DNA of 39,049 nt from assembly GCA_001563325.1 (NCBI GenBank), contig LRSK01000201.1, positions 1-39,049 on the forward strand, given 5' to 3'. The position numbers and the translations under genes are program-made. This document shows, one piece after another, positions 11,229 through 34,080 of this stretch (positions within the stretch are counted from its first letter, which is position 1; each line of letters starts with the position of its first letter). Below the pieces are notes generated by a model. It saw only the letters and a program-made list of their open reading frames with translations, was not told where the DNA came from and did not search any database. Source of the stretch: Candidatus Thorarchaeota archaeon SMTZ1-83. Lineage in GTDB: Archaea > Asgardarchaeota > Thorarchaeia > Thorarchaeales > Thorarchaeaceae.

Positions 11229-12049
11229 TTCTGGTCGAGGATGTCTACTTCTCCTATGAGGGCTTATACACAGCCCTTCGTGGAGTATCTCTGCAGATTG
11301 ACCGTGGGGAGCGCGTGGCCATAATGGGTGCCAACGGAGCTGGCAAAACCACGCTGATAAAACACCTAAACGGTCTACTTCGACCACAAAGAGGTAGGGT
11401 GTTCATAGAGGGTAGAGATGCAACAGAGCAATCTGTCGCTGAATTGTCCAGAGTAGTTGGGCTCGTCTGGCAGAATCCAGATCATCAGCTGTTTCTAGAG
11501 AGCGTGAGAAAAGAGGTCATCTTTGGTCTCAAGAACCTTGGTTTCACCGATGCAGATGCTGACGAGCGTTGTGAAAGGACTCTAGGAAGCCTCGGTCTAG
11601 AGGGGTTTGCAGAGAGGTCTCCGTTTGCTCTCTCTGGAGGTGAAAGAAAGCGTGTTGCTCTCGCATCAGTCCTCGCTACCGAACCTCGGGTCCTAGCCCT
11701 TGATGAACCAACGATTGGCCAAGACGCGAAGCAGAAGGAAAATCTCGCTGAGATGCTTGCTGACATGAACAAGAGTGGACGCACCGTGATTGTGGTTACA
11801 CATGACGTCGAGTTCGTTGTTGAACACTTCCCGCGTACAATAACCATGGCCAATGGACAGGTTGTATCCGACGGTCCGACAAGTTCAGTGCTCAGCAACG
11901 ATCAGGTTCTCGATGAGTGTTCACTGACCCCCCCTCAACTAACACTAGCCGCCCGGGCACTGAACGAGAGATTTCCAGGCATATCTGGCCGGCTTTCTTT
12001 GCTTGAGGATGTGGAGAACGCGGTGGTTAAGTTGCTAGGAGGTGACTGA
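11225..12049 (+). CDS. ecfA2: ECF transporter ATP-binding protein A2
   Basis: Second ATPase of the ECF module, 274 residues. Walker A GANGAGKTT (35-43), Q-loop WQNPDHQLFLESVRKEV, signature LSGGERKRVA, Walker B VLALDEPTIGQD and switch VVTHDVEFV are all intact. It is paralogous to the upstream gene and would form the A1A2 heterodimer that drives EcfT. GTG 11225 overlaps the TGA of ecfA1. Its own end contains the AGGAGGTGA that serves as SD for ecfT. Confidence 0.92.
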   Translation: MILVEDVYFSYEGLYTALRGVSLQIDRGERVAIMGANGAGKTTLIKHLNGLLRPQRGRVFIEGRDATEQSVAELSRVVGLVWQNPDHQLFLESVRKEVIFGLKNLGFTDADADERCERTLGSLGLEGFAERSPFALSGGERKRVALASVLATEPRVLALDEPTIGQDAKQKENLAEMLADMNKSGRTVIVVTHDVEFVVEHFPRTITMANGQVVSDGPTSSVLSNDQVLDECSLTPPQLTLAARALNERFPGISGRLSLLEDVENAVVKLLGGD

Positions 12050-12054
12050 AACTG
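12039..12054 (+). promoter_or_regulatory. Shine-Dalgarno pointing to a CTG start for ecfT
   Basis: GGAGGTGA is at 12038-12045. Exactly six bases after GGTGA comes CTG 12052. The first conventional start in that frame, GTG 12067, is 21 bases from the SD, and the frame is closed at TGA 12043-12045. Confidence 0.5.
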
Positions 12055-12822
12055 TCATTTCTTGAAGTGTTTCAATACACAAGCAAGTCGTCAATAGTCC
12101 ATGATCTAGACCCACGGTCCAAGATGTTTCTCTCCATAGTCCTGGCCATCTTGTCCTTTCTCTTCCTTAATATCATCCCTTTGCTAATCCTTCTACTCTT
12201 TCTAATCCCTCTGATTGGAGCAGCAAAGTCGCTTCGAAGATGGGCGAGAAGCATGAAGGGGCTATCTTTCCTACTGGTCTTCATAATAATCTTCAACACG
12301 CTTCTGTCGACCGTGTCGAATCCGTTCTCCCACTCTATTTCGCTTACCATCCGGTTGGTGGCCTTGATGACGGCCTTCTCTGTGTTCTTTCTTACCGTAC
12401 ATCCAGACCAGCTTGCGCAGGCGTTAATTCAGATGCGCGTTCGATTTGAGTTCGCATTTGCGATGAGCATGGCTATGCGCTACGTTCCCACTCTTGGTCA
12501 GGAGGCCTATGCAATAATGGACGCTCAAAAGGCACGTGGTGTCGAGCTTGACAAGGGAAATATCCTGAGGCGTATTCGGAACATCGTGCCCATTATCGTT
12601 CCCCTAATCATTGTGTCGATCCGGAGGGCGCTGTCTGTTGCTGAGAGCATGGAGTCTCGAGGGTTTGGAGCATGTGAAGATAGGACCTATATGGAGAAGT
12701 TGAGATTCCGCAAGAGGGACTGGGGAGTGGTCTTAGTTTCTCTTTTTGGTCTAATACTGTTAGTCTACGTCAGGCTATACGTTCCTCTTCCAGATTGGAT
12801 GCTCTGGCAACTTCCATTCTGA
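12052..12822 (+). CDS. ecfT: ECF transporter transmembrane component EcfT
   Basis: Membrane scaffold that couples the two ATPases to substrate-binding S components. N-terminal SFLEVFQYTSKSSIVHDLDP-RSK is typical of EcfT. Hydrophobic segments lie at about 27-60, 75-100 and near the C-terminus. The coupling-helix motifs are present as QKARGVEL (Ala-Arg-Gly) and MESRGFGA (Ser-Arg-Gly in place of the second Ala-Arg-Gly). The start is unusual. A perfect SD precedes CTG 12052, whereas GTG 12067 would cut the first five residues and has no SD. No S-component gene is seen in the window, so this is probably a shared (group II) module. Confidence 0.88.
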   Translation: MSFLEVFQYTSKSSIVHDLDPRSKMFLSIVLAILSFLFLNIIPLLILLLFLIPLIGAAKSLRRWARSMKGLSFLLVFIIIFNTLLSTVSNPFSHSISLTIRLVALMTAFSVFFLTVHPDQLAQALIQMRVRFEFAFAMSMAMRYVPTLGQEAYAIMDAQKARGVELDKGNILRRIRNIVPIIVPLIIVSIRRALSVAESMESRGFGACEDRTYMEKLRFRKRDWGVVLVSLFGLILLVYVRLYVPLPDWMLWQLPF

Positions 12823-12910
12823 TGTTCTCAGAGGGGTCTCTGTCGTATGTATGAATATGATTTATCAGACTCCGCATGCACATCCCACACTGTTTCGGTG
12901 GGCGAGGTCT

Positions 12911-13495
12911 ATGTCCGGTAAGAAGTCTGTCAAACTCACTAAGAGAGATAGGTACACAGTGAAGGCTCTCGTCACCGATCTGAAGAAGATTGGCTGTACC
13001 CCTAGAGTTCTAGATACTGTGGGGCGAGAGGTTCTCTACTTTGAGTGGTCTCAGGCTCAAGAACTGTTGGGCGAGGATCACCCTGTGACAGCAAATCTTG
13101 AATCTCTACTAGAGTTCATGCGCGGAGGATGCGAGAAGGCGCTGATTGACGGAGAACTCTGGCGCGCGGCTGACACTTCCAGTTCTGCAATAAACCAAGC
13201 GATAAAAGGAGCCCCCAAGGAATTCCTCTCCTATCAGCTATTGCGTTCTGCAGATCACATTCGATTTGTTTTGGATTCCGTCATTCAAGAAAGGTCCCAA
13301 GAGATGAAGGAGTATAAGAGAATGGAGAAGGGCGTGCGCCAAGAGCTGAAGTCAGACCCGGATAATCCCGATTTGTGGAATAAGATGCGGCTTCTACTCT
13401 GGATCCTTGGACGCTACAAGGAATCGAGCGAGGCTTTCCAGAAAGCCAAGAAGCTTGGATGGGACAAGTCCACAAGCCATTTTGTCGCAATCTGA
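12911..13495 (+). CDS. Hypothetical helical protein with C-terminal TPR-like repeat
   Basis: Not a family I recognise. About 194 residues from ATG 12911 (MSGKKSVKLTKRDRYTVKAL), almost entirely predicted helix. The last 45 residues (DPDNPDLWNKMRLLLWILGR, then YKESSEAFQKAKKLG) look like one tetratricopeptide repeat, suggesting protein-protein contact. The frame is open to ATG 12851, but a TATA-like GATTTATCAG (about 12858-12867) lies inside that extension. This favours the later start. It is convergent with the following VOC gene. Confidence 0.6.
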   Translation: MSGKKSVKLTKRDRYTVKALVTDLKKIGCTPRVLDTVGREVLYFEWSQAQELLGEDHPVTANLESLLEFMRGGCEKALIDGELWRAADTSSSAINQAIKGAPKEFLSYQLLRSADHIRFVLDSVIQERSQEMKEYKRMEKGVRQELKSDPDNPDLWNKMRLLLWILGRYKESSEAFQKAKKLGWDKSTSHFVAI

Positions 13496-13504
13496 CCGTA
13501 ACTC

Positions 13505-13519
13505 AGATTGAGTCAATCT
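13505..13519. terminator. Palindrome between convergent genes
   Basis: AGATTGA (13505-13511), one base, TCAATCT (13513-13519) is a perfect inverted repeat in the 51-base gap between two convergent stops. It would work as a hairpin on either strand. No clear U-tract. Confidence 0.35.
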
Positions 13520-13546
13520 ATCATTCTCTCGGTGAATCTCAACAGA

Positions 13547-13924
13547 CTAATGCTTCTGCAGAAAGGGATCTATTCTAAGTGCCTGCAGTGGATGTAGAAA
13601 GGTCTGGAATTCCAGTGCTCTTCCTTCAGGATCGACCGCGAAGAACTGATAGATGCGATATTGTTTGTTCTCTCGTGTGCCTGATGTTGCTATGTCTTGC
13701 AGTTCTGCAAACATTCTGTCTACTTCTTGCTTTGAGGGGTAGAAGAGTGTGATCATACCCTCCGTTTCGCTTCTGTCCCGCTGGCAGAACCCTACTAGAA
13801 GGTTCCCATGGCTCAGAATCACGCAGTCTCTCTGTTGGAGCCAAACCTCCAAACCCAGTCTTTCCGAATAGAAACTGACAATCTCATCGAGCATTCTGGT
13901 TTTGAAGAAGAATAGTCCTGCCAC
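13547..13924 (-). CDS. VOC (glyoxalase/dioxygenase superfamily) protein
   Basis: 125 residues with the paired beta-alpha-beta-beta-beta layout of the vicinal oxygen chelate fold. It opens with FKTRMLDEIVSFYSERLGLE, has the middle strand CVILSHGNLLVGFCQR, and ends with FFAVDPEGRALEFQTF, where the Glu in LEF is the usual metal ligand. VOC members include glyoxalase I, dioxygenases and antibiotic-resistance proteins; the first-half metal histidine is not evident, so the reaction is unknown. GTG 13924 is fixed by GAGGTGA six bases upstream. It is divergent from the histidine phosphatase gene. Confidence 0.8.
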   Translation of the reverse strand: MAGLFFFKTRMLDEIVSFYSERLGLEVWLQQRDCVILSHGNLLVGFCQRDRSETEGMITLFYPSKQEVDRMFAELQDIATSGTRENKQYRIYQFFAVDPEGRALEFQTFLHPLQALRIDPFLQKH

Positions 13925-14045
13925 TGTTGTTCACCTCATTCGCAATTCTACTTCGATTCAATCTATGTTCCCAATCCTGACACTCTTAGTTAATACGAAC
14001 GATATAGTCTTTGGGGGGAGAATCACTAGCTCATATGAGGACAAG

Positions 14046-14612
14046 TTGATTCACGTGAAGCCTCTGATTCATCTTCTGCGACATGCAGAATCCAAATTGG
14101 ATCCCAACGTACCAGCAGACAGATGGCACATTAGTGAAGAGGGGACGGAATCTGCCCGCGCCTTAGCATCAAGCGGTGTCTTCGACGATGTAGATCTAAT
14201 CGTGACTTCTGCTGAGGACAAGGCGTTCGAGACTGCCGTGCCAATTGCTAGGAGGATAGATGCAGAGGTCATCAGAAACTCCAGTTTTAATGAGCTATAC
14301 AGGGGTACGGGTCCGTTTACATCACGTGAGGAGTATCATGAACGAGTCCGCACTACTTTTAGTAATCCTAGTTCCAGTACCGGCGGGTGGGAAACTGCAG
14401 CCAGCGCGCTTCGACGTTTTGAGCAAGGCCTAAACAGAGTCGAGTCAGGAACCGGAGCACGCTCACTTCTTCTTGTTTCACATGGACTCGTGCTGTCACT
14501 CTATTTTGCTCGTCTCCTGAAGACAGAGGAAGTCTATGATAGATGGCGAAGACTGGAATTCTGCTCCTGGGGAACAGTGAGGAACAGAACGGTCCTTAAA
14601 GACATAGTGTGA
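14046..14612 (+). CDS. Histidine phosphatase superfamily protein (phosphoglycerate mutase-like)
   Basis: The catalytic RHG-type motif appears as HLLRHAES (His then Ala-Glu in place of Gly-Glu) near the N-terminus. The second part of the site includes LIVTSAEDKAFETA (the R/K region), ELYRGTGPFTSREEY, and the late histidine in LLLVSHGLVLSLY. The order fits the two-domain active site of this superfamily, which hydrolyses phosphate esters through a phosphohistidine. The frame is open to 13902, but homology begins just before the RHA motif. TTG 14046, five bases after GAGG (14037-14040), or GTG 14055 are the credible starts. Substrate unknown. Confidence 0.8.
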   Translation: MIHVKPLIHLLRHAESKLDPNVPADRWHISEEGTESARALASSGVFDDVDLIVTSAEDKAFETAVPIARRIDAEVIRNSSFNELYRGTGPFTSREEYHERVRTTFSNPSSSTGGWETAASALRRFEQGLNRVESGTGARSLLLVSHGLVLSLYFARLLKTEEVYDRWRRLEFCSWGTVRNRTVLKDIV

Positions 14613-14670
14613 CTTTGAATCAATCTCCTGGTTCAGAAGCTCGTGTTACTCAAGTCCCCAGTATGCACAT

Positions 14671-14692
14671 TTCCGAACCCCTGGCTTCGGAA
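14671..14692 (+). terminator. Hairpin terminator after the histidine phosphatase
   Basis: TTCCGAA (14671-14677) and TTCGGAA (14686-14692) pair perfectly around an eight-base loop and are followed by a T-rich tract (TTCTTCCATTT). It sits 58 bases after the stop. Of the candidate terminators in the window this is the clearest. Confidence 0.55.
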
Positions 14693-14766
14693 TTCTTCCA
14701 TTTGAATGACTCCGAGCGCATAATCCTGAATCATCCGACTACCGAGAATAGATATCCATTCTAGAT

Positions 14767-15264
14767 ATGCTAGTACCTGTGAAAGAGATGACGGACATCC
14801 CAGAGATGGCCAAGAAATACGCGGAGCTCATGGAAGCCCCGGTTGACGAAGCAAGTGTCAACGAGAACGGAGAATCTCTCTCCACACTATGCCAATCCGA
14901 GTGGGTTCGCATTCTTGTGATTAGACGTCCAAGCACTCCAGATCTCGTCACAATTGAGGCAGAGATCTCTCTCCCATCACCTGTTGTTAAGGCAACCGAT
15001 CCTGATGCGACTGATAGTGGCCCCGAGGACAATGGGAGTGACCTGCTTCAGCAAGCGATTGAACACCTACAATATCTCTCGCGACTTAGGGCCAAAGGAT
15101 TCACTCTGGATGTCGTGGGTCAGGAGTGTCTCTGGACTGCCTTCAGGGACTTCACAGAGACTCCAGTTTCGGAAGTGTTCAATCTCCTGGAACCGCCGAG
15201 TGGTTGTGGTCAGAGCACAAAAGGGAACCCGTCTGTCATCCCTCCTTTCCGATACACGATTTAG
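14767..15264 (+). CDS. Unrecognised three-cysteine family protein, copy 1
   Basis: 165 residues; no known family recognised. It is clearly homologous to the protein at 21468-21872. The shared core is TLCxxxWVRxLVIRxxSxPD (residues about 40-59), an acidic strand ending in SLP, then HLxYLxRLxxKGF and LDxVGxxCLWTA (to about 125), and a final LLxPPS(G)C. Three cysteines are conserved at C42, C121 and C147. It has an 18-residue C-terminal extension that the other copy lacks. The start is uncertain: ATG 14767, GTG 14779 or ATG 14788. A small winged-helix gene follows within 20 bases, so the two are probably co-expressed. Confidence 0.65.
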   Translation: MLVPVKEMTDIPEMAKKYAELMEAPVDEASVNENGESLSTLCQSEWVRILVIRRPSTPDLVTIEAEISLPSPVVKATDPDATDSGPEDNGSDLLQQAIEHLQYLSRLRAKGFTLDVVGQECLWTAFRDFTETPVSEVFNLLEPPSGCGQSTKGNPSVIPPFRYTI

Positions 15265-15282
15265 ACTAGAAGGTGGTAACGA

Positions 15283-15537
15283 ATGTCTGCTGAACTACCG
15301 AGAAGCGCGCTCATAGTTCTCGATTTCCTTGCAACTAGAGGTCCGCATTCTCCCAAGAGTATTAGCACGAATGCCAAGCTCCCACTGAGAACAGTTTCTT
15401 TCGCCCTTAGGCAGTTGAGACGTCTTCATTTGTGTCGCCGGATACCCAACCTTCACGATATGAGGCAACCTCTCTATCTGGCCGACCCGGAGAAGGCTAA
15501 GATGCTCTTCAGAACCATCGGGGGAATACTGGCATAA
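15283..15537 (+). CDS. Small winged-helix DNA-binding protein
   Basis: 84 residues with a single MarR/ArsR-like helix-turn-helix: ALIVLDFLATRGPHSPKSIS, then LPLRTVSFALRQLRRLHLCR as the recognition helix, and a short wing (RRIPNLHDMRQPLYLAD). There is no effector domain. AGGTGG ahead of ATG 15283 gives a reasonable SD. It follows the three-cysteine protein gene and may regulate it or itself; target unknown. Confidence 0.75.
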   Translation: MSAELPRSALIVLDFLATRGPHSPKSISTNAKLPLRTVSFALRQLRRLHLCRRIPNLHDMRQPLYLADPEKAKMLFRTIGGILA

Positions 15538-15572
15538 TACACACCTGTTGGATGTCCTAGATGCTAGCGAGG

Positions 15573-15587
15573 GAACCTAGTAGGTTC
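15573..15587. terminator. Palindrome at convergent gene ends
   Basis: GAACCTA (15573-15579), one base, TAGGTTC (15581-15587) is a perfect seven-base inverted repeat. It overlaps the stop codon of the minus-strand rSAM gene and lies 36 bases after the plus-strand stop, so it could end transcription from both sides. Confidence 0.4.
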
Positions 15588-16980
15588 GAGACCGTTTGAG
15601 ATATCCTGCCAAGTTCCGAGCCATCATCTTGAAAATCTGGAAGTTCCCTGCTTTGAGGTGTTTCCAAAGAAATCCTGCTCTTGTATAGAATCTAAGATAG
15701 GCTCTATGCAGGAGTCTCTTGATGTCACGTTTCCCAAGACCTGGGAAATGCATCACAGGGTCTAGGACGGAGTATCTTGACCATTCTCCAGAAACCAACC
15801 ATCCGTTTCTTCTCGCTTCATCAAAGAGAGGAGTCCCCGGATAGGGCGTACACACAGTGAATTGAGCAAGGTCGGGATCAAGCCTACATGCCAAGTCGAT
15901 GGTTTCATCAATCTCTTGTCTTGTTTCGCTTGGAGTCCCAATTACAAAGGAAAGAATCACGCCCAGACCCTCTTTCTTCAGAATCCCAACTGATTTCACA
16001 ATATCATCGACTAGAATTCCCTTCTTCATTATGTTGAGAATCCGCTGACTGCCTGATTCTGCGCCGATGTATACTGTGTGACAGCCAGCAGCCCTGAGCC
16101 ATCTTGCCATATCTGGATATCTTGACATTATGTCAGCTCGTGTTGAGCAAGTCCAACCGAAACGTGTGCCTTTGGCGTTTAATAGCTTACAGAATTCTCT
16201 CACTCTCTCTTTGTCAAATGTGAAGAGGTCGTCCAAGAACTCAATCTCTCTTACGCCATACTCATGTTCGAGCATCTCGATTTCTTCAACCACATTAGCA
16301 GGGCTTCTGCCGCGCCACCTCTTGCCGACAATGCGCGACGAAGAACAGAACACGCACTTGTAGGGACATCCTCTACTCGTGATCATTGTGGCCCAAGGAA
16401 AGCTGCCTGCGAAGTATTGCTTGAGGCCAAGGAGGTCATACGCCGGGAAGGGAAGACTGTCGAGGTCCTTAATATGTGGCATGTCAGGGTTTCTAACTAT
16501 CTGTGAGTTTCTGCGATAGGTGATTCCCCTCACGTCAGAAAGACCTTGCTTTGTTTCGATTGCTCTGAGCAGCGCCTCCATGATGGTCTCTCCTTCCCCT
16601 CGAACAACGATGTCAATTTCTGGGCATTCGGCAAGAGCATTTGTGTCCTCGAAGGTTACATGGGCTCCCCCCACAACAACATATGTGCCGGAATCGAATC
16701 TTTTCATTAGACGAGCCGCATGATATGTATCATAGATTGACGGTGTGGCAGTGCCACTTATGCCAACCACGTTAGGAGAGAATGATTCAAGGACGCGGTA
16801 GAAATCCTCGTCAGTTGAACGTGCAAGTAGAGCGTCATATATCATCACTTCGTGATCGCCAAAAGTGCGGATGTAGCTGGCGATATATCCTAGTCCCAGT
16901 GGGGGTGGGTGGACGCCTAATGAGTCCTTTATGTCACACTTCGAGTGGGGAACTGTGAGAAGGACTCTCACATGATTCAT
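15577..16980 (-). CDS. B12-binding-domain radical SAM protein
   Basis: About 467 residues. The N-terminal half is a cobalamin-binding Rossmann domain (RVLLTVPHSK, HPPPLGLGYIASYIR, VVGISGTATPSIYDTYHAAR, VVVGGAHVTF, VVRGEGE), then a radical SAM barrel with the cluster motif SRGCPYKCVFC (C205, C209, C212). The DxHxxG base-off histidine motif is not evident; the equivalent loop reads DALLARSTDE. Such enzymes methylate or rearrange unactivated carbons; homologues make hopanoid or tetraether-lipid modifications and natural products. ATG 16980 overlaps the upstream TGA (ATGA), which excludes the longer frame to 17088. Third gene of the TetR operon. Confidence 0.88.
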   Translation of the reverse strand: MNHVRVLLTVPHSKCDIKDSLGVHPPPLGLGYIASYIRTFGDHEVMIYDALLARSTDEDFYRVLESFSPNVVGISGTATPSIYDTYHAARLMKRFDSGTYVVVGGAHVTFEDTNALAECPEIDIVVRGEGETIMEALLRAIETKQGLSDVRGITYRRNSQIVRNPDMPHIKDLDSLPFPAYDLLGLKQYFAGSFPWATMITSRGCPYKCVFCSSSRIVGKRWRGRSPANVVEEIEMLEHEYGVREIEFLDDLFTFDKERVREFCKLLNAKGTRFGWTCSTRADIMSRYPDMARWLRAAGCHTVYIGAESGSQRILNIMKKGILVDDIVKSVGILKKEGLGVILSFVIGTPSETRQEIDETIDLACRLDPDLAQFTVCTPYPGTPLFDEARRNGWLVSGEWSRYSVLDPVMHFPGLGKRDIKRLLHRAYLRFYTRAGFLWKHLKAGNFQIFKMMARNLAGYLKRSRTY

Positions 16981-18530
16981 CCCCCTTGTGATGCCTTGGG
17001 AGTCGCTTTCAGGATTGCCGTTCTGAATCTCTCCTGTACCTTCTCTTTTGCCTTGATGGCCTTCCAGAATGCCAAGTTCCTTATGCAACCAGGGTCGGGC
17101 GCATGATAATCATCGAAGTACTGTATTGCACGTGCTCGACACCCTCCACAGACATATCGGCTTTCGCATGTGCCGCAGGCGCCTTTCAGCAGGTCTTTGT
17201 TCCTAAGGTCATTCAGGACTCTGTTCTCAGTCCAGAGTTTCTCCAAGTCATCTCTGAGAATGTTGCCTACTCTGACCTTGGGGATGTGCGGAAAGAATAC
17301 GCACGGATAGATGTCCCCGTTCGGTTCTACTGTCACGTAGAAACGGCCTGCACCACAACCTCCGATAAACGTGGATAGTTCACCCATCTGAGCAGGTAGC
17401 CGGACATTGAAGAAGTGAGTGGGATACAGCCCTTCCGAGGAGTGGCAGGAGGAAGCACACGTTTCTTCGGCAGCCATTCGTGCCACACGGCCCAACTGTG
17501 GGGCTGTTGTCAATACGTCCACGTCTTCTGAGCTGCTCTTCGAGAGAATCATGTCTAGGATGTCATGCAGCATCTTCTCTCTCTCGCTCGGTGTCAAATC
17601 TGACTCCAGGATCTCTGTCCCGCGTCCAACCGGCACAAAGTTGTAGACCATGAACCATCTGACTCCAAGACTCCTACAAAGCTGAACAGTGTCAAAGAGC
17701 TCTGCGAGATTGTGACGAGTAACAGTCATGGCCACTTCCACGAATAGACCTTCATCCACGCAGTTTCTGATTCCTTTGATAGTCTTCCTGAAGGCTCCGG
17801 GGACGCCTCTGAAACTATCATGTGTTGCTTCTGAGGCGCCGTCCAGGCTTATCTGGACAAACTTGAGGCCTGCCTCTTTGAACTCCCTGGCTCTTTCAAC
17901 CTTTGAGAGAGTCGTGCCATTAGTTGCCATTGCGACGTAGATGTCGTTGTCCGTCGCGTGTCTTATCAGAGTACGAATATCGGGTCTGAGACTTGGTTCT
18001 CCTCCTGAGAAGGCCAAGAAAACAATACCAGTATCAGCCAGCGTGTTGATACAACGGAGCGCGTCATTTGTAGTCATCTCATCCGAGGCCCTTTCGCCTG
18101 CGATTTCATAGCAATGCCTACACCTCAGGTTGCACGCCTTTGTTACATTCCAAACGACTTGGAACGGTGCGCCTGGTACAAAAGGAGTTCTAGCTCCGAA
18201 CCTAGCCAGCCCAGAAATGACGCTGGATAGTGACCTTCTGAATATCGAGTCGGAGAGACCCTTGACTACAAACTCAGAATCCGCTCCAAAGGCTGAGGAA
18301 CCACTCGAGATGATTCGTCGGATAATTGAGGTGGCCAGCCTGCAAGACCGACATGCATGCTGCCTGATTCCAGCAATCAGCTCAAGAGCCACATTCAACC
18401 TTGTGTTTCCACATGATTGACATCTCTTAACAAAGCCTCTCAGGATGCTCCTTGAAATCCTGTTCTGAGTGAGTGCCTTCAGTAACTCAATCTTCGGGTC
18501 ATGTGTTTCCTGACTTCTTATCAACGACAC
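16977..18530 (-). CDS. Radical SAM/SPASM-domain protein with N-terminal cysteine pairs
   Basis: 517 residues from GTG 18530. An N-terminal metal-site-like module has two Cys-x2-Cys pairs (C37/C40 and C60/C63). The radical SAM motif is ACNLRCRHC (C133, C137, C140), with GGEPSLRPD and QISLDGAS following as in MoaA-like enzymes. A C-terminal SPASM region has many cysteines (CGAGRFYVTVEPNGDIYPCV, then GACGTCESRYVCGGCRA), implying extra 4Fe-4S clusters. SPASM enzymes modify peptides, cofactors or lipids; the substrate here is unknown. It starts six bases after the tetR stop and overlaps the B12-rSAM gene. Confidence 0.9.
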   Translation of the reverse strand: MSLIRSQETHDPKIELLKALTQNRISRSILRGFVKRCQSCGNTRLNVALELIAGIRQHACRSCRLATSIIRRIISSGSSAFGADSEFVVKGLSDSIFRRSLSSVISGLARFGARTPFVPGAPFQVVWNVTKACNLRCRHCYEIAGERASDEMTTNDALRCINTLADTGIVFLAFSGGEPSLRPDIRTLIRHATDNDIYVAMATNGTTLSKVERAREFKEAGLKFVQISLDGASEATHDSFRGVPGAFRKTIKGIRNCVDEGLFVEVAMTVTRHNLAELFDTVQLCRSLGVRWFMVYNFVPVGRGTEILESDLTPSEREKMLHDILDMILSKSSSEDVDVLTTAPQLGRVARMAAEETCASSCHSSEGLYPTHFFNVRLPAQMGELSTFIGGCGAGRFYVTVEPNGDIYPCVFFPHIPKVRVGNILRDDLEKLWTENRVLNDLRNKDLLKGACGTCESRYVCGGCRARAIQYFDDYHAPDPGCIRNLAFWKAIKAKEKVQERFRTAILKATPKASQGG

Positions 18531-18536
18531 CTACTA

Positions 18537-19163: not shown

Positions 19164-19165
19164 GC

Positions 19166-19191
19166 TATGCAAGTAAGTGCTTGCTTGCATA
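19166..19191. promoter_or_regulatory. TetR operator (26-bp near-perfect palindrome)
   Basis: TATGCAAGTAAG (19166-19177), TG, CTTGCTTGCATA (19180-19191): 11 of 12 positions pair. On the minus strand a TATA-like CTTATTAT (about 19190-19197) overlaps its far edge and the tetR ATG is two bases past the near edge. Occupation would block transcription initiation, the expected mode for autorepression. Confidence 0.75.
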
Positions 19192-26221: not shown

Positions 26222-26233
26222 TAGCACTTGCGC

Positions 26234-27505: not shown

Positions 27506-27620
27506 TCAAGCTTTACGACAAGCTGTCCCACATTTAGGTTGCGCTGTATTGGCTCGGGCATACTGTTAATATGGATGGAGTACACTGACTCTCAAAGTTA
27601 GTGTGGGGTCACAGAGTAGG

Positions 27621-28202
27621 ATGGATTATTTGATACTTACATGGGACGACGTCTATAATCTCACACTTCGTCTCTCCGAACAAATCGTCAAAAGTGGATT
27701 TAAGCCCGATGTGATTGTAGGCATCGCCCGGGGAGGCTGGATTCCTGCTAGGATTCTCTCTGATGTTCTATTTGCAGAAACGCTGCAGAACATCCGTATT
27801 GAGTACTATTCTGACGTTGGAAAGCGTGGCAGGGAACCTAAGATCACTCAGCCGATAACAGGGACGATGGAAGGCAAGAGCATTCTTCTCGTAGATGAAG
27901 TTGCTGACACTGGTGACAGTTTATTTCATGCTATTGAACATGTGAAGGCTCTTGGTGCCGGTCATGTGAAATCTGCAGTACTTCATTTCAAACCATGGTC
28001 AAGAGTTGCCCCGGACTACTACATGGTGAAGACGGAGAGTTGGACTGTATATCCGTGGGAGATGCGGGAGTCAATTATCGCGCTAGTCAAGGTCTTCAGA
28101 AATGAGAACCCCTCTCTCAACGTAAAGGAGATTCGCGACAAGTTAGTCTTTGAAGTTGGTTTCGAGCCGACCGTTGCTGACTACTTCATCAAGAGGCTAT
28201 AA
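27621..28202 (+). CDS. Purine-type phosphoribosyltransferase
   Basis: 193 residues from ATG 27621 (MDYLILTWDDVYNLTLRLSE); GTG 27603 would add six residues. The type I PRTase PRPP-binding loop is ILLVDEVADTGDSL, and the N-terminal PDVIVGIARGGWIPARILSD is the PPi-loop region of archaeal HPRT/xanthine PRTase-like proteins. It would make a purine nucleotide from a base and PRPP for salvage. A TATA-like TTAATAT (about 27565-27571) stands upstream. The following gene starts 20 bases later. The precise base is not deducible. Confidence 0.85.
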   Translation: MDYLILTWDDVYNLTLRLSEQIVKSGFKPDVIVGIARGGWIPARILSDVLFAETLQNIRIEYYSDVGKRGREPKITQPITGTMEGKSILLVDEVADTGDSLFHAIEHVKALGAGHVKSAVLHFKPWSRVAPDYYMVKTESWTVYPWEMRESIIALVKVFRNENPSLNVKEIRDKLVFEVGFEPTVADYFIKRL

Positions 28203-28222
28203 TCAACATTAGGGTGAATCGA

Positions 28223-28804
28223 TTGCTACTAGAACGCTTGGTCTATGGTGAAGAAACCTTCAAGGTTGTTATTGCCGAGCTCAAGAACAGCGACAGACTA
28301 AATCGTGCCACCCTGCTTAGAATGGCATTGGAATTCTCCAAGAACCTGTTGGCTTTCCAGTTTCTCAAACCCTCACTCATTGCTGGAATCGGTCATATTC
28401 TCTCAGCAGCCCAGAACGCTCTCAATGCTTGGAAGGGAGGATATGGCATCGCTCGAAGTCTAGACATCGAAGTGGCACTATATACCTCTGGTCAACATCA
28501 AATCGGCGTTGCACTTGAACACCATGGGGTGGAAGATGGACTTGATTCGGTCGCACTTGTTATGATTGACACTGATGAAACCAAGCTAGTAGAGCAGTTT
28601 GGACTTGCTGTTGAACAATTGGGAGATGAGGTTATCCCGCCGTTCGTACCGACAGAAGATCGACTTCGCGGCATAATGGTACACTACGGCATTAGCGAAA
28701 GTGAGATCTCTGCTGCATCATCCTCGGACTCGTTGGAATCGCGCTTCAAGGCGCTTGAGGGGTGTGTTGCAAGCAGAGTTTCCCTGGTATCACTAGAATC
28801 ATAG
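28223..28804 (+). CDS. cgi121: KEOPS complex subunit Cgi121
   Basis: About 193 residues. Diagnostic of Cgi121/TPRKB is the centre of the chain: FLKPSLIAGIGHILSAAQNA, LNAWKGGYGIARSLDIEVAL and YTSGQHQIGVALEHHGVEDG. Cgi121 binds Bud32 and recruits the tRNA 3' CCA end to KEOPS for t6A37 synthesis. GGGTGA (28212-28217) sits five bases before TTG 28223, which I prefer to GTG 28214 because the latter overlaps the SD. The gene is followed by convergent tan1-like and sua5 genes, which also act on tRNA. Confidence 0.85.
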   Translation: MLLERLVYGEETFKVVIAELKNSDRLNRATLLRMALEFSKNLLAFQFLKPSLIAGIGHILSAAQNALNAWKGGYGIARSLDIEVALYTSGQHQIGVALEHHGVEDGLDSVALVMIDTDETKLVEQFGLAVEQLGDEVIPPFVPTEDRLRGIMVHYGISESEISAASSSDSLESRFKALEGCVASRVSLVSLES

Positions 28805-28812
28805 AGTCCCAT

Positions 28813-29346
28813 TTAGTATTCATCGTCACGCAATGACATGATAGAGAGAATATCCTTCTCAGGGTCAATCAGTGACATGCCCGTCCAATCTCCCACAACC
28901 TCAATCCACAGCGTACTGTCTGGATTGTCAAGATTCACCTTCCTGGATATGACCGCAGCCACGGCTGTGATAACTTCCATGGTCTCAAGCGTAGAGTGCC
29001 TTCTTCTGACGGTGACCCTGAATGACTCCTCTTCTTGAATCTTGGTCCCCAGCTCCTTGGCCACTCTGACCATTTCTTCCATGTCCGAATCAATGCAGAA
29101 CTCTAGAGGCGTGAATCGCACAGCGAATCTGAACTGATATGGATTCTCAAGTGCAAACTCTCTCAGCTGATGAACCACCTTCACCGGATCCAATGTCGTA
29201 TGGCATGCTAGGAGTCCCGAAACGTTTGTGCGAGTGATTTTCAGACCCGGGTCTCCCAAAAGGTCGCCAACGAAATACCTGACTTCTGAGCTGGCGGCGC
29301 GCTCTCTTTCTCTTGGACACCCAACTAGAAGATTGTAATTGGGCAG
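28813..29346 (-). CDS. THUMP-domain protein, Tan1-like (CTG start)
   Basis: 177 residues if started at CTG 29346. The family (Tan1 in yeast, THUMPD1 in humans) binds tRNA as the adaptor for N4-acetylcytidine at C12. The N-terminal part (PNYNLLVGCPRERERAASSE, then VRYFVGDLLGDPGLKITRTN) and the THUMP core (NPYQFRFAVRFTPLEF, VTVRRRHSTLETMEVITAVA, VNLDNPDSTLWIEVVGDWTG) match archaeal members. The first conventional start, TTG 29259, would remove 29 conserved residues and has no SD. The sua5 stop is 12 bases upstream and overlaps the SD, so the two genes form an operon. Confidence 0.85.
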   Translation of the reverse strand: MPNYNLLVGCPRERERAASSEVRYFVGDLLGDPGLKITRTNVSGLLACHTTLDPVKVVHQLREFALENPYQFRFAVRFTPLEFCIDSDMEEMVRVAKELGTKIQEEESFRVTVRRRHSTLETMEVITAVAAVISRKVNLDNPDSTLWIEVVGDWTGMSLIDPEKDILSIMSLRDDEY

Positions 29347-29359
29347 ACTTTTTCACCTC
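29344..29359 (-). promoter_or_regulatory. Shine-Dalgarno pointing to a CTG start for the Tan1-like gene
   Basis: GAGGTGA (minus strand, 29359 to 29353) is followed by exactly six bases and CTG (29346-29344). The frame is closed just upstream at TGA 29355-29353, so no other start is available for the conserved N-terminus. Confidence 0.6.
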
Positions 29360-30110
29360 AGATATCCGCATAGACAAAGTGGGTTGTCCATAGCCCCAGA
29401 GCATCTGGGTCGGCTCTTAGCATCTCGGCCAATCTGTCAACAGTGAGCTGTCCTTCTCTGTATATCTTGATATCATGAGGGCCCTTCTCACCCTTAGATC
29501 CCTCGACACCGACGATTGTAGAGTCCCGGTGTGTTCTCGAAGGCCCTCCATCAATGTAGAGGTCAACGTCATCGCGGAGTTGTTCAACTGCAACAGATAC
29601 TTCGAATGGGCTTGGTCCTCCGCTTCGGTTGGCACTAGTGCCAACGATCGGTCCTTGAAGCTTCGCTGCAATGCCGCAAGGAATTGGATGGTCCGGTATT
29701 CTCACTGCCACTGACTCCCGTTTCCCGGTGATGTATCTGGGAATTCTCTGACCGGCTGCTACTAGAAGTGTCAATGCTCCTGGCCAGAAGATTCTAGCTA
29801 TAGCTCTCTCGAGATGGCGAAACTCATGGTATTCCTCAAATTGAGCCAAGTCTGAGAACAGGAGAGGAACTCCCAGTTTCCGGCCCCTTCTTTTCACAGC
29901 CAGGAGGCGCTCGAACGAGCTACTCTGTTTGGGGTCACAGGCAAGCCCATAACTAGTGTCCGTGGGATATACGACTAGCCCTCCTTTCGAAATGACTTCA
30001 GTTGCCTCCTCTATTACCCCTGCGTTACCATTGGGGTCGAGCGCTTCGAGGACTCTTGGCTTCAAATTCGTACCCGTTTCTCCTTCCCGACAAACACTCA
30101 TAAGAACCAT
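29358..30110 (-). CDS. sua5: L-threonylcarbamoyladenylate synthase (Sua5/YrdC)
   Basis: Makes threonylcarbamoyl-AMP from threonine, bicarbonate and ATP, the donor used by KEOPS for t6A37 of tRNA. The YrdC fold motifs are clear: GGLVVYPTDTSYGLACDP (the entry loop), LLAVKRRGRKLGVPLLF (K-x-R motif), WPGALTLLVA, SVAVRIPDHPIPC and GPIVGTSANRSGGPSPFEV. 250 residues, so YrdC domain plus a short C-terminal extension, shorter than Sua5 proteins with the full C-terminal domain. ATG 30110 or ATG 30101. It is divergent from the nucleotidyltransferase gene only 33 bases away and coupled to the Tan1-like gene downstream. Confidence 0.93.
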   Translation of the reverse strand: MVLMSVCREGETGTNLKPRVLEALDPNGNAGVIEEATEVISKGGLVVYPTDTSYGLACDPKQSSSFERLLAVKRRGRKLGVPLLFSDLAQFEEYHEFRHLERAIARIFWPGALTLLVAAGQRIPRYITGKRESVAVRIPDHPIPCGIAAKLQGPIVGTSANRSGGPSPFEVSVAVEQLRDDVDLYIDGGPSRTHRDSTIVGVEGSKGEKGPHDIKIYREGQLTVDRLAEMLRADPDALGLWTTHFVYADI

Positions 30111-30130
30111 GTCGTTTGTAGGAGTTCAAA

Positions 30131-30146
30131 AGGAGGAATTGGCATC
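30131..30146 (+). promoter_or_regulatory. Shine-Dalgarno pointing to an ATC start
   Basis: AGGAGG (30131-30136) followed by seven bases and ATC 30144. The frame has no ATG, GTG or TTG between the sua5 start region and ATG 30183, which lies past the nucleotide-binding loop. Confidence 0.55.
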
Positions 30147-31163
30147 CACGCTGTCATCCTTGCTGCTGGGCGGGGCTCAAGAATGAGTCCTCTCACTGAC
30201 AGAATCCCCAAACCTCTCATTCCAGTTGCAGGTATGACTCTCATCGAACGTCTCATTGCTGAACTCAAGGCCGCGGGAGTGGAATCCTTCACCGTCGGCG
30301 TTGGTTGGAGGGGTGAACTCATTGAGAAGCATCTGCTTGGATTGCCTGATCATGACAAGATTAGAATTGTCACAGCACAGGAGTACGAGAGAGGTCCTCT
30401 GGCAACGCTCATCAATACACTGGATGATACTTCACCAGATCGATTTCTGGTATGTCCTGCCGATCTCGTTGTGAATTCGAGTATCGCATCTCAACTCATT
30501 TCGGCCCATGATGAGCGCAGAGAGAACCAGTTCATGTCCATTGGGGTGGATATGTCGGCACGACAAGGGACCTTGGTCCGCATTGACGAGAACGGTTCTG
30601 TGGTCAGCTTCGACCAAAGTGGACCATCCAATTATGAGACCGGCAGAAGTGTGATGATGTCCATCATAGAAAGGGTCCTGCTTGGGCGTTTGAGGGAAGC
30701 TCTGGAGGTCGGTCATGAAACAATGTCCTCCGCGGTGAATCAAATGATATCTGAGGGGTTTGAAGTGACCCCTGTAAAAGTGTCTGGCTACTGGTCTGAC
30801 GTTGACAGCCTACTTGACGTACTGGAAACGAACCAGAGTCTTCTGCAGGATGTGGTAACATCTCCAGAGGACGGACTCTTCATCCGGCCGGGTCGTACAT
30901 TCCATGCTGATGACCACAGGGGACCTGCTAGTCAGACATTGCTTGGACCAGGAACTCGCATAGTCGGTCCGGTGCTGATATCCCCCGATTCGAAAGTTGG
31001 GTCCCGTTGTCTTGTGGGCCCGAGCGTTAGTCTTAGTGAGCATACGGAAGTAGAGGACGACTGTCAAATAGAGAATGCGGTGTTGTTCGGTAGGGGTTCT
31101 GTACGAAAGAAATCCAGAATACAGGATGCCATTGTGTATAACCGATTACAGCTCTTAGGGTGA
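30144..31163 (+). CDS. Sugar/inositol-phosphate nucleotidyltransferase with beta-helix tail (ATC start)
   Basis: About 339 residues. The catalytic loop HAVILAAGRGSRMSPLTDRI, then PKPLIPVAGMTLIERLI, is the hallmark of NTP:sugar-phosphate nucleotidyltransferases (GlmU, RmlA, GCD1 and inositol-1-phosphate cytidylyltransferase). CPADLVVNSS matches the metal-binding D-x-x motif. A left-handed beta-helix follows (GPGTRIVGPVLISPDSKVGS, RCLVGPSVSLSEHTEVEDDC). Half of the nucleotide loop is coded before the first ATG (30183). Initiation at ATC 30144, behind AGGAGG, gives the normal family N-terminus. The next gene, a CDP-alcohol transferase, starts six bases after its stop, which hints at making a CDP-polar head group. 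Confidence 0.85.
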   Translation: MHAVILAAGRGSRMSPLTDRIPKPLIPVAGMTLIERLIAELKAAGVESFTVGVGWRGELIEKHLLGLPDHDKIRIVTAQEYERGPLATLINTLDDTSPDRFLVCPADLVVNSSIASQLISAHDERRENQFMSIGVDMSARQGTLVRIDENGSVVSFDQSGPSNYETGRSVMMSIIERVLLGRLREALEVGHETMSSAVNQMISEGFEVTPVKVSGYWSDVDSLLDVLETNQSLLQDVVTSPEDGLFIRPGRTFHADDHRGPASQTLLGPGTRIVGPVLISPDSKVGSRCLVGPSVSLSEHTEVEDDCQIENAVLFGRGSVRKKSRIQDAIVYNRLQLLG

Positions 31164-31169
31164 AGAAGA

Positions 31170-31772
31170 ATGTCGCCAAGCAGGTACCGAGTTCGTAGTC
31201 TGTTCAGAGGTGCTGTCACTCATGTGGCAACTGCGTTACATAGGAGAGGGGTCAGGCCAAACACAATCACATACCTCACAGTCCTTTTGGCGATTGTCGC
31301 TATGCTAACACTGGTCTTGACGAACTCTGAGCCCCTATATGGACTGTTCGTGTTCCTGATGGGGTTCTTTGACGGAGTCGATGGGGCCATTGCAAGGAAC
31401 GCTGGCATCGCGTCTAGAACTGGCGCTCTAACTGACTCGGTGTTAGACAAAGTCTCTGAGTCTATAGTGTTGGCTGCAATTGCCTTGGCACACCTAACCG
31501 ATGTTGTCTTGGGTCTCTCAGTTTCAATCTGGGTTCTGGTGTGCCTTGCTAGCTGGCTTCTGACTAGCTACACTAGAGCACGAGCTGAGAGTCTCGATGT
31601 GACTGATCTCGATGTGGGAGTAGGTGCTAGGTCTGAACGACTTCTTACCCTTGTCGCCTTCTCACTTCTAACACTGCTATTGCTGGGCCTTGTTATTGTA
31701 ACCCTCATGGGAATTCTCACTGCAGCGTATCGTTACCAGCACTACAAGGACCAGATTGATATAACGACCTAA
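31170..31772 (+). CDS. CDP-alcohol phosphatidyltransferase (archaeal phospholipid head-group enzyme)
   Basis: 200 residues, integral membrane with about six hydrophobic segments. The catalytic motif D-x2-D-G-x2-A-R-x8-G-x3-D-x3-D is complete in FFDGVDGAIARNAGIASRTG followed by ALTDSVLDKVSES. The segment YTRARAESLDVTDLDVGVGA, then RSERLL, resembles archaetidylinositol-phosphate synthases, which join inositol-1-phosphate to CDP-archaeol. Di-myo-inositol-phosphate synthesis is the alternative. ATG 31170 follows GTGAAGAAG. Linked to the nucleotidyltransferase six bases upstream. Confidence 0.88.
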   Translation: MSPSRYRVRSLFRGAVTHVATALHRRGVRPNTITYLTVLLAIVAMLTLVLTNSEPLYGLFVFLMGFFDGVDGAIARNAGIASRTGALTDSVLDKVSESIVLAAIALAHLTDVVLGLSVSIWVLVCLASWLLTSYTRARAESLDVTDLDVGVGARSERLLTLVAFSLLTLLLLGLVIVTLMGILTAAYRYQHYKDQIDITT

Positions 31773-31783
31773 CCCAACAGACC

Positions 31784-31795
31784 ATTATACTTAAG
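31784..31795 (+). promoter_or_regulatory. Promoter element for the 31846 gene
   Basis: ATTATACTTAAG is TATA-like; transcription would start near 31815, about 30 bases ahead of ATG 31846. Confidence 0.45.
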
Positions 31796-31845
31796 AGTGG
31801 ACACATGTTGGCCCGCCGCGTCAATTGATGCAGGAGCCCATTTCA

Positions 31846-32265
31846 ATGCCCAAATTCAGAGCTGATCACTATCTCGTTGCTGAGTTTGAAGAGATCACGG
31901 ACTTCAAGACGACTGGTGAGTCTGTTCTGGCGGCCTTGAAAGAGGTCTCTGAGCTTAAGGATCTCGCGATGGTGTCAAAGCGACTCGAGGGCAAGTCTTG
32001 GTCTGAGATTCTTGGAAGAATCGACATTCCGGAAGGGTCCAAGGCCTTCTGGGCTATGATAAAGAAGGACCTGTCAGAGCGAGAACCCTACAATCTATTC
32101 ATCAGATTCGACATGAATGCCGAAGCCGAGGATATTGAGAATGCGCGAGCCAAGGTCAAAGCTTGGCTAGATAGTGAAGTAGTCCCGAGAATCCAAGCGA
32201 GGACGCCGACCAAGACAATTAGAATCCTTCAGCCTGATGAGGTCTACATGCCCAAACTCGATTAG
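31846..32265 (+). CDS. Hypothetical small cytoplasmic protein
   Basis: Not recognised. About 139 residues from ATG 31846 (MPKFRADHYLVAEFEEITDF), with CAGGAG nine bases upstream; TTG 31825 and ATG 31828 are in frame but precede the SD. Mixed alpha/beta character: an N-terminal strand-helix unit, a central helical section (SKAFWAMIKKDLSE), a strand (YNLFIRFDMN) and a helix (DIENARAKVKAWLDSEVVPR). No cysteines and no membrane segments. Own promoter; convergent with the beta-propeller gene. Confidence 0.55.
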   Translation: MPKFRADHYLVAEFEEITDFKTTGESVLAALKEVSELKDLAMVSKRLEGKSWSEILGRIDIPEGSKAFWAMIKKDLSEREPYNLFIRFDMNAEAEDIENARAKVKAWLDSEVVPRIQARTPTKTIRILQPDEVYMPKLD

Positions 32266-32268
32266 AGC

Positions 32269-33279
32269 CTATTCATTCTCCACTTCAATCACATAGAGAT
32301 TATTGCCGACAGCTTGCACAATCTCCATGGAGGAGTCTCCATCAATATCCCCAAAGGCCACGAGAGATTCACCGGGTTTAGGAGCTGTCTTCAACGAAGC
32401 AATCTCCTTTAGTTCGAGGCCGGTGAAGCCAAGTAGGAGCACTGTTGAGTCACGCAGAGTGAGCAAGACTTGCCCACCGGCCTCGTCGTCGATTATCCTG
32501 CCCATTCTCACAGCGGTCGCTACGTCAGGTGTCTTTATCTTCAGTATGCTCTCCAGCGACTGTTGCTCCACTCCGAAGAGAGTGAGTGTTCTCCCATCAG
32601 AAACAGTGGCAATCTCGTCATATCTTCCTCCCGTGATTGAACCAGTAGCAACGAGCTGAACTTCGCCTCCAACCTTGACCCTATCTATCTCATGCAATCT
32701 GTCATCAGCATACTGATACACATAGAGATAGCCGGCTTCATCTCCAAAGACAAATCGGCTGTAGGGCATGCTTGCGATGGATAAGGGCCTCATTGAGAAG
32801 ACCGGACTCTCCACAACTTTGTGCGCTAGTTTGTCCAAGACCACGTCAAACCATCCATAGCATCTTAGAGCATTGTCATTCGTGGCCACAATCACCTCGG
32901 CACTCGTATCATCCATGACATTTGTGACCACCAACGAAGTTGGCAACGTACCAATCGGGGTGGAGCACTTGACCTGAAGCTTGCCATCCATAAAGACCAA
33001 GAGGCGCAGTTGATTGTCGAGTCCTGCGACAATGAAGTCCGGTGATCCGTTGCCCAGTATGTCTCCGACATCAAGGACAGCCACAGGGGGCAGTCCACTC
33101 GTCCTGGCTATCTCCTTCAGTTTTGGTTTCTTTCCAGAAACAAAGTCGAATACTCTGAGGTCTCCATTCATAGTAGAGATCACGATGTTATCTTTCCCAC
33201 TCTCAGACAGGTCGGCCAACTCAAGTGATGTGATGGCCTCTTTGAAGGAAACTTGTGTTACTAGACTAAGCTGGGTCAT
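32269..33279 (-). CDS. Seven-bladed-type beta-propeller protein (FG-GAP/VCBS-like repeats)
   Basis: 336 residues from ATG 33279 (MTQLSLVTQVSFKEAITSLE), placed by GAGGTCA upstream; the frame extends to 33339. Repeating units of about 45-50 residues carry the D-x-x-G-(N/D)-G pattern of FG-GAP blades, for example LDVGDILGNGSPDFIVAGLD, VTNVMDDTSAEVIVATNDNA and VAFGDIDGDSSMEIVQAVGN, each followed by a W/Y-rich strand. There is no signal peptide, so unlike most FG-GAP proteins it is predicted cytoplasmic. It resembles the intracellular propellers of BBS-type proteins in layout, but I cannot claim homology. A TATA-like CTTAAAT (minus strand, about 33341-33348) stands upstream. Confidence 0.7.
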   Translation of the reverse strand: MTQLSLVTQVSFKEAITSLELADLSESGKDNIVISTMNGDLRVFDFVSGKKPKLKEIARTSGLPPVAVLDVGDILGNGSPDFIVAGLDNQLRLLVFMDGKLQVKCSTPIGTLPTSLVVTNVMDDTSAEVIVATNDNALRCYGWFDVVLDKLAHKVVESPVFSMRPLSIASMPYSRFVFGDEAGYLYVYQYADDRLHEIDRVKVGGEVQLVATGSITGGRYDEIATVSDGRTLTLFGVEQQSLESILKIKTPDVATAVRMGRIIDDEAGGQVLLTLRDSTVLLLGFTGLELKEIASLKTAPKPGESLVAFGDIDGDSSMEIVQAVGNNLYVIEVENE

Positions 33280-33340
33280 CAGAGAGTGACCTCGATTGTA
33301 TGGGCGGTGGAGTGTCGAACTGTTGAACTTGGCTTGCACA

Positions 33341-33348
33341 ATTTAAGA
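33341..33348 (-). promoter_or_regulatory. Promoter element for the beta-propeller gene
   Basis: CTTAAAT on the minus strand, about 60 bases before ATG 33279, in a divergent intergenic region with the PriL-like gene. Confidence 0.4.
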
Positions 33349-33415
33349 GTTCCTCGAACAACTATTGAATGTATGAAACCCTTGAGTTTCTCTGAGAGCT
33401 TGAAAGAAATGTGAT

Positions 33416-33427
33416 GCGTTTAAGATG
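33416..33427 (+). promoter_or_regulatory. Promoter element for the PriL-like gene
   Basis: GCGTTTAAGATG has a TATA core at 33419-33424; transcription would begin near 33449, giving an almost leaderless mRNA for ATG 33458. No SD is present, consistent with this. Confidence 0.45.
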
Positions 33428-33457
33428 CACTTTGACTCATGAAAGTCTGGAATTGTG

Positions 33458-34006
33458 ATGCGCGGAAACCAAAGACGATCCATCTTGAACGAGGAGAGCT
33501 GGATTGGCTCTGAAGAGGAGGTGATAGAGGAGCTTCAGTCTTTCGTTTCCGAATTCAGCTCCTTCACACCTGAATGGTTCACGGACATCAAGTTCCACGT
33601 TCTTCGCAAGACAGGACTTACCCTTGAGAGTCGTAATGAACTCTGCAGGCTCTCAATAAAGCATAGTTTCTGTCCTCGATGTGACTTTCTATACTCGGCC
33701 AAGAAGTGTCTTCTCTGGGGTCGACTGTTTCGACTTATCAATCCAAAGCTGTTGCACCGAGCTCCACCCTGCATCAGAAACGCCTACGAGAAGAACAGCA
33801 TCAAGATTGTTGCAGACTACTTGGTGACAGCCAACTTGATTGAGCCGCCATTCTACAAAGCACGACACGCTCCGTCCTGTGGAGCCCTGCGACGATGGGG
33901 ATTTTGTACACCTGACGACTACTGTAGAGAAATGGAACGTGAGAACACATTCGCATACACTGCTGCTCGAGAGAGGATTCGGAGGTCAAGAGAACTAGGG
34001 TCCTAG
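33458..34006 (+). CDS. Stand-alone protein like the primase large-subunit Fe-S domain
   Basis: 182 residues from ATG 33458. The C-terminal half matches the 4Fe-4S domain of archaeal/eukaryotic PriL: first cysteine in HRAPPCIRNAYEK, then HAPSCGALRRWGFCTPDDYC with the Cys-x8-Cys-x5-Cys spacing typical of archaeal PriL (the P-P-S-C...L-C...(F/Y)-C block). The N-terminal half is not PriL-like and has four more cysteines (about C63, C72, C75 and C84, the middle pair as CPRC). At 182 residues it is about half of a normal PriL, with no PriS gene nearby. It may be an accessory or PriL-derived nucleic-acid-binding protein. Terminates in a pyrimidine-rich tract. Confidence 0.75.
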   Translation: MRGNQRRSILNEESWIGSEEEVIEELQSFVSEFSSFTPEWFTDIKFHVLRKTGLTLESRNELCRLSIKHSFCPRCDFLYSAKKCLLWGRLFRLINPKLLHRAPPCIRNAYEKNSIKIVADYLVTANLIEPPFYKARHAPSCGALRRWGFCTPDDYCREMERENTFAYTAARERIRRSRELGS

Positions 34007-34035
34007 TCCTCTACGCTTCTTTCTGATGTCATGGC

Positions 34036-34043
34036 TTAAATAA
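34036..34043 (+). promoter_or_regulatory. Promoter element for the HD gene
   Basis: TTAAATAA is 31 bases ahead of the AGGTGA SD; transcription would begin near 34063, just before that SD. Confidence 0.45.
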
Positions 34044-34066
34044 CAGTGAGAACAGACATCGGCGCA

Positions 34067-34080
34067 GGTGACTTTCGATT
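34067..34080 (+). promoter_or_regulatory. Shine-Dalgarno pointing to an ATT start for the HD gene
   Basis: GGTGA (34067-34071) is followed by exactly six bases and ATT 34078. The frame is closed at TGA 34069-34071 and has no ATG, GTG or TTG before 34342. Confidence 0.6.

Follow-up and report, generated by a model that had tools for sequence, protein, structure and literature searches.

Probable near-cognate start codons behind Shine-Dalgarno sites in a Thorarchaeota contig and their conservation in related genomes

The stretch of DNA analysed here (the window) comprises positions 1 to 39,049 of contig LRSK01000201.1 from Candidatus Thorarchaeota archaeon SMTZ1-83, in which four genes appear to begin at near-cognate codons: ecfT at CTG 12052, a THUMP-domain (Tan1-like) gene at CTG 29346, a sugar nucleotidyltransferase gene at ATC 30144 and an HD-domain phosphohydrolase gene at ATT 34078. 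Comparison of relatives indicates that these codons are the true start positions. We regard them as very probably real starts, conserved at two of the genes, at which the initiator tRNA (Met-tRNAi), anchored by a Shine-Dalgarno (SD) sequence, would initiate on a codon with one mismatch. Near-cognate initiation is well supported by the aligned start regions.

Results

The comparison set consists of 47 genomes of the family (individual genomes are denoted by G numbers), and the closest relative found is Candidatus Thorarchaeota bin8 (CP070658.1, G001), with about 82% DNA identity to the window over positions 28644-32608. In what follows ATG, GTG and TTG are the canonical codons, ATH stands for ATC, ATT or ATA, and a start is called obligate when no canonical codon is usable upstream in frame.

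An earlier note on this DNA had described four genes that have a near-cognate codon at a near-constant distance from a strong SD and lack a canonical start giving a complete N-terminus, and all four codons and SD sites can be read in the window at the stated places. Each codon is one base from AUG, and all four genes have an SD at working distance (the 16S anti-SD being assumed), with the spacing GGTGA-N6 before ecfT, THUMP and the HD gene and AGGAGG-N7 before the nucleotidyltransferase gene. The TGA within GGTGA is an in-frame stop three codons 5' of the first three codons, leaving two codons between stop and start, and an upstream start is therefore impossible there; in none of the four genes is there an in-frame ATG, GTG or TTG upstream. 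The next canonical codons downstream are GTG at +5 in ecfT, TTG 29259 at +29 in THUMP, ATG at +13 in the nucleotidyltransferase gene and ATG at +88 in the HD gene. The note's claim on the N-terminus needs correction for ecfT, which would lose only LSFLE with a start at this GTG. In THUMP and the nucleotidyltransferase gene the stretch between the near-cognate and the next canonical codon diverges between the window and G001 like coding DNA.

The THUMP gene (28813..29346, minus strand; PF02926) has the SD GAGGTGA at 29353..29359 on the same strand, which overlaps the stop of the neighbouring sua5 gene and supplies the in-frame TGA. A THUMP match is present in 46 of the 47 family genomes, and the start was read in 38 of these and in the window. 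The start column of these 39 genomes holds NTG codons exclusively (CTG 33, ATG 4, GTG 1, TTG 1). The entropy of leucine codons is 0.19 bits at this column versus 2.1-2.5 bits at eleven other conserved leucine columns of the gene, which use all six leucine codons (five at one column); CTG is therefore conserved as a codon, unlike an internal leucine. It is strictly obligate in seven of the 33 CTG rows (window, G001, G011, G015, G016, G018 and G027), where the upstream frame is shut within 0-3 codons and the next canonical codon lies 21-56 codons downstream. G001 has CTG behind the same SD as the window, and the 28 codons compared between the two show 0/0/10 differences at codon positions 1/2/3.

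The nucleotidyltransferase gene (30144..31163, plus strand) encodes a protein matching PF00483/PF12804, with a left-handed beta-helix C-terminus whose matches are weak; TIGR03992 is below its cut-off. Its SD, AGGAGG, occupies 30131..30136 on the plus strand, seven bases before the ATC, and the 55 open codons upstream contain no ATG, GTG or TTG. Matches at 1e-60 came from 13 of the 47 family genomes, and ten genomes from syntenic stretches plus the window brought the number read to 24. The start column holds ATC in 12, ATT in 6, ATA in 4, ATG in 1 and CTC in 1, so that 22 of the 24 are ATH; the exceptions are G002 with ATG and G008 with CTC and an ATG five codons upstream of it. An SD match of at least five bases at spacing 7-8 accompanies 21 of the 22 ATH rows (window included) and neither of the two others. 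Half of the ATH rows (11/22, window included) have no canonical codon in the open upstream frame. The codon at -2 argues against a longer protein, as it is not kept as isoleucine and can also be CCC, TTC, GTT or TTA. Over 12 codons the window and G001 differ 1/0/5 by codon position, all synonymously, and G001 starts with ATA where the window has ATC. The test of codon against amino acid constraint cannot discriminate for this gene.

The ecfT gene (12052..12822, plus strand; a CbiQ-like T component of an ECF transporter, Pfam PF02361, E=3.7e-30) has its SD, AGGAGGTGA, at 12037..12045 on the plus strand, of which 12043-12045 is the in-frame TGA. It was read in 35 of 41 matching family genomes and the window. 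In these 36 genomes the column before SFLE holds ATG 17, TTG 7, CTG 4, GTG 3, ATA 1 and ATT 1, and the remaining three rows (GCT 2, CTT 1) have a canonical codon just upstream. In two of the six near-cognate rows, G024 and G032, a GTG at -3 falls within the SD. Four codons compared between window and G001 show 0/0/1 differences.

The HD gene (34078..35607, plus strand; PF01966 and PF19276, HD plus HD-associated region) follows the SD AGGTGA at 34066..34071 (plus strand), whose TGA is the in-frame stop, and in the window there is no canonical codon as far as the conserved LIRL stretch. The protein is matched in 39 of the 47 genomes and has a variable N-terminus; 30 sequences including that of the window were read, and in 21 of them a canonical codon stands 11 codons ahead of the anchor. 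The window's arrangement, GGTGA-N6-ATT and its in-frame TGA, recurs in G003, and G004 has GGTGA-N5-ATG. In CP070658.1 (G001; L001 about 9900-10000) a scaffold gap of 100 N removes the HD start, and synteny with the window ends before the gap.

The frequency of such starts in ordinary genes was counted in two syntenic regions. Region 1 is the window's own (19 further genomes) and was chosen for its near-cognates; region 2 (20 genomes) was anchored on a gene in the G001 stretch picked by position. The G001 region L116 is not syntenic with the other genomes, whose stretches were compared among themselves, and the anchor L121, which gave paralogues, was left out. A start column, identified with the help of conservation, counted only when canonical codons made up 60% or more of its rows, and owing to this threshold THUMP and the nucleotidyltransferase gene lie outside the count. 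Among 336 cells 300 are canonical, five obligate near-cognate, none obligate with another codon, 13 ambiguous near-cognate and 18 ambiguous other; region 2 by itself gives 3/150 obligate near-cognate. The five are ecfT with CTG (window) and ATT (G011), aRF1 with CTG (G019 and G020) and an FAD-oxidase-like gene with ACG (G017). By our arithmetic, the chance that four independent events all fall within 7 of the 58 non-canonical sense codons is about 2e-4. The earlier note had supposed that near-cognate initiation is tolerated or used far more often than annotated, and in size this agrees with 5/336 cells (3/150 in the region not chosen for near-cognates) against 6 CUG/AUU switches among 68,906 reconstructed annotated starts, by our sums, in the part of PMC5622118 available to us; such initiation may not be special to this organism, as other Asgard genomes have some and a scan by SD alone gives no excess.

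The aRF1 gene (L215:481-1560 in G019; orthologue L217 in G020) has its CTG after AGGTGA-N6; the frame before it lacks a canonical codon, the first one downstream is 27-46 codons away, and the column is canonical (ATG, TTG or GTG) in most other genomes.

Outside the family, the THUMP region was examined in longer stretches from 20 genomes of the phylum, some of which may be close kin. Of 281 cells, 256 are canonical, six obligate near-cognate, five obligate other and 14 ambiguous. A Met follows five codons later in all five obligate-other cells and in two of the six near-cognate ones (ecfT ATA); the obligate-other cells are probably misplaced columns, and the outside-family evidence for near-cognate starts is weaker. 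The THUMP start itself was read in 20 genomes of the phylum outside the family; position -1 or 0 is canonical in 14 of them, and G162 has ACG with canonical codons farther upstream. Apparent obligate THUMP starts among the 20 longer phylum stretches are ACG in G167 (L282), ACG in G168 (L277) and ATT in G146 (L285). The THUMP gene also adjoins sua5 in L269, a relative of this last set.

A scan for near-cognate codons spaced behind an SD was applied to samples of G001 (400 kb), G010 and G002 (200 kb each), E. coli MG1655 (250 kb) and the window, comparing spacing 7-10 with a control spacing. With an SD match of at least six, near-cognates versus control were 13/87 vs 19/86 in G001, 8/42 vs 7/40 in G010, 7/43 vs 3/41 in G002, 6/35 vs 4/35 in E. 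coli and 3/14 vs 3/14 in the window, and with at least five they were, by our sums, below control in all five sets alike. The SD alone is unable to find such starts, and the case consequently rests on conservation, not on SD statistics. In G010 (L133:9281) a phosphoglucomutase-like gene (LSHKLFGTSGIRG) has an apparent CTG start after AGGAGGT, one codon past a stop, with a canonical codon four codons on.

Discussion

How could these codons be decoded? A strong or fair SD would position the 30S subunit so that its P site contains a codon differing from AUG by one base, and Met-tRNAi (anticodon CAU), the likely decoder, would initiate with a single mismatch, in the first base at CUG, in the third at AUU, AUC or AUA and in the second at ACG; the first residue would presumably be methionine. 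In most genes the near-cognates would be sporadic and interchangeable with AUG, GUG and UUG. The family-wide retention of CUG in THUMP and AUH in the nucleotidyltransferase gene would most likely serve low translation or sensitivity to initiation stringency.

The strength of the SD is in keeping with this. A match of at least five bases precedes 79/208 ATG, 25/34 GTG and 38/58 TTG starts, 4/5 obligate near-cognates and 5/7 obligate THUMP starts; weaker start codons, GUG and UUG, are reported to be compensated by a stronger SD (Belinky et al. 2017, PMC5622118, in the portion available). An apparent initiator tRNA with a CAT anticodon was read by eye in G001 (L116, about 3717-3857), recognised by features which we take to be those of an initiator; two apparent introns interrupt its anticodon loop and its T loop, and it is absent from the Rfam tRNA match list. 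None of four genomes searched yielded an initiator anticodon arm in one piece. The factor aIF1 (SUI1) is present in 44 of the 47 family genomes, and available parts of PMC6237735 state that it favours discrimination against non-canonical starts in Sulfolobus. Loss of aIF1 as a cause is ruled out by this distribution. The one-base difference from AUG, the CAT initiator, the presence of aIF1 and the SD compensation together point to Met-tRNAi, anchored through the SD, as initiating at these codons despite a single mismatch.

A number of observations weigh against this reading. At THUMP, the open upstream frame contains some canonical codon in 26 of the 33 CTG rows, so that their start is ambiguous: ten have a GTG at -5 that overlaps the sua5 stop, a start that gene finders probably choose and that is the likely origin of the 182-aa THUMP entries in databases, and five have ATG, GTG or TTG at -1. 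At the nucleotidyltransferase gene, eight of the 11 ATH rows without an upstream canonical codon have a GTG at +3 (16 bases from the SD), and an internal isoleucine codon would likewise give ATC, ATA or ATT at the start; closure of the upstream frame argues against the internal isoleucine in 11 of the 22 rows. At ecfT, only two of the six near-cognate rows (window and G011) lack a canonical codon upstream, G011 has no SD match of five, and the window gene could itself start at GTG +5; as this start costs only the first residues LSFLE, the ecfT case leans on relatives. More generally, the SD-only scan of five sets gives no clear excess of near-cognates (a small one in G002 and E. coli), the comparative count of start columns covers Asgard genomes only and has no outside control, and a search of G001 did not find the 16S gene, which is why the anti-SD is assumed.

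Four other explanations were considered. Of these, translational coupling survives best: ribosomes finishing an upstream gene would restart at the near-cognate codon, with little codon strength needed. The position of ecfT, two bases after the upstream stop (12047-12049), and of THUMP, 11 bases after the sua5 stop, which lies inside the SD, favour coupling, and it may assist in these two genes; the nucleotidyltransferase gene, however, is divergent from its neighbour and the HD gene lies 71 bases past the stop of the previous open reading frame, and therefore coupling cannot account for all four. As the general explanation it is possible and still rather unlikely. A dedicated initiator with another anticodon, or an altered initiation factor, would suit the several classes of near-cognates in use (CTG, ATH and ACG), but every codon is one base from AUG, as mispairing of CAU predicts, aIF1 is present, and the G001 tRNAs called by ARAGORN look ordinary, in a list that is incomplete, with 9 of 30 loci lacking a call and the apparent initiator missed; such a decoder appears improbable. 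It is even harder to accept that translation begins at the downstream canonical codons (giving a 148-aa THUMP protein and starts at ATG 30183 and ATG 34342). Public THUMP proteins P0001 and P0004, 99% and 85% identical to that of the window, are indeed 148 aa long (among the best 120 of 238 matches), yet in THUMP and the nucleotidyltransferase gene the codons before the downstream starts are conserved and vary chiefly at third positions, the ILAAGRGSR loop at the N-terminus of the nucleotidyltransferase would be missing, and the SD stands at the near-cognate codon and not at the canonical one. That CTG, ATC and ATT are ATG codons altered by mistakes in base-calling or assembly, which the earlier note had thought unlikely, is hardly credible, given the same THUMP CTG in 32 of 38 other genomes (33/39 with the window), ATH at the nucleotidyltransferase start in 22/24 with ATA in G001 against ATC in the window, the switching of ecfT between canonical and near-cognate codons, and the HD start of G003, so that relatives already refute this explanation for THUMP, the nucleotidyltransferase and HD.

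If SD-anchored near-cognate initiation is accepted, it has consequences for annotation. Prodigal, a widely used gene finder, considers ATG, GTG and TTG only (PMC2848648, as far as available), and as it ignores CTG, ATT and ATA, Asgard proteomes can hold truncated proteins, in some genomes even aRF1; this touches the Asgard proteomes used in work on the origin of eukaryotes. A review of archaeal translation (PMC7531240) gives AUG, GUG and UUG as starts, and CUG and AUU are absent from its main text. Judged by title and the start of the abstract, no paper on near-cognate starts in Asgard archaea was present among the literature matches listed. In the lineage thought to be nearest to eukaryotes, a near-cognate start conserved as a codon across an archaeal family offers a natural way of testing start-codon stringency, and it makes the role of archaeal aIF1 and t6A in setting that stringency directly testable.

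Comparison with known systems

In E. coli, infC has an AUU start through which IF3 regulates its own synthesis, and pcnB also starts with AUU. The Thorarchaeota genes resemble these in having a conserved near-cognate start with an SD, which probably limits translation. They differ in that CUG and AUH are used, in unrelated archaeal genes and with the factors aIF1, aIF1A and aIF2, and in that any regulation here would be conjectural. The relation between GUG or UUG and the SD described in PMC5622118 is likewise comparable, as the weaker codon goes with the stronger SD here too; the difference is that, by our sums, only six switches to CUG or AUU occur there among 68,906 reconstructed starts, and genes with CUG or AUU were excluded from one of its analyses of neighbouring sequence as too few.

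Both conserved near-cognate loci flank the same gene, sua5/tsaC (29358..30110, minus strand; L-threonylcarbamoyladenylate synthase; TIGR00057 at 150.9 bits over a cut-off of 123.2; PF01300), which lies upstream of THUMP and divergent from the nucleotidyltransferase gene. The product of sua5 makes the intermediate for t6A37. The earlier description of the four genes as unlinked thus does not hold for these two, and the four are no random draw. As the most daring version of stringency-dependent translation, a feedback could be imagined in which a fall in Sua5 or t6A raises the tolerance of Met-tRNAi for mismatches, so that the CUG and AUH neighbours, acting as sensors, are translated more; we consider this doubtful, and such a feedback would be an archaeal counterpart of the infC/IF3 loop. 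In yeast, loss of SUA5 or t6A raises non-AUG initiation, CUG included (PMC4717488, in the part available). On the one hand, the yeast case, as far as that part of PMC4717488 describes it, involves eukaryotic scanning, whereas the link in Thorarchaeota comes from gene neighbourhood alone; on the other hand, the two systems would be alike in that Sua5 is tied to near-cognate starts.

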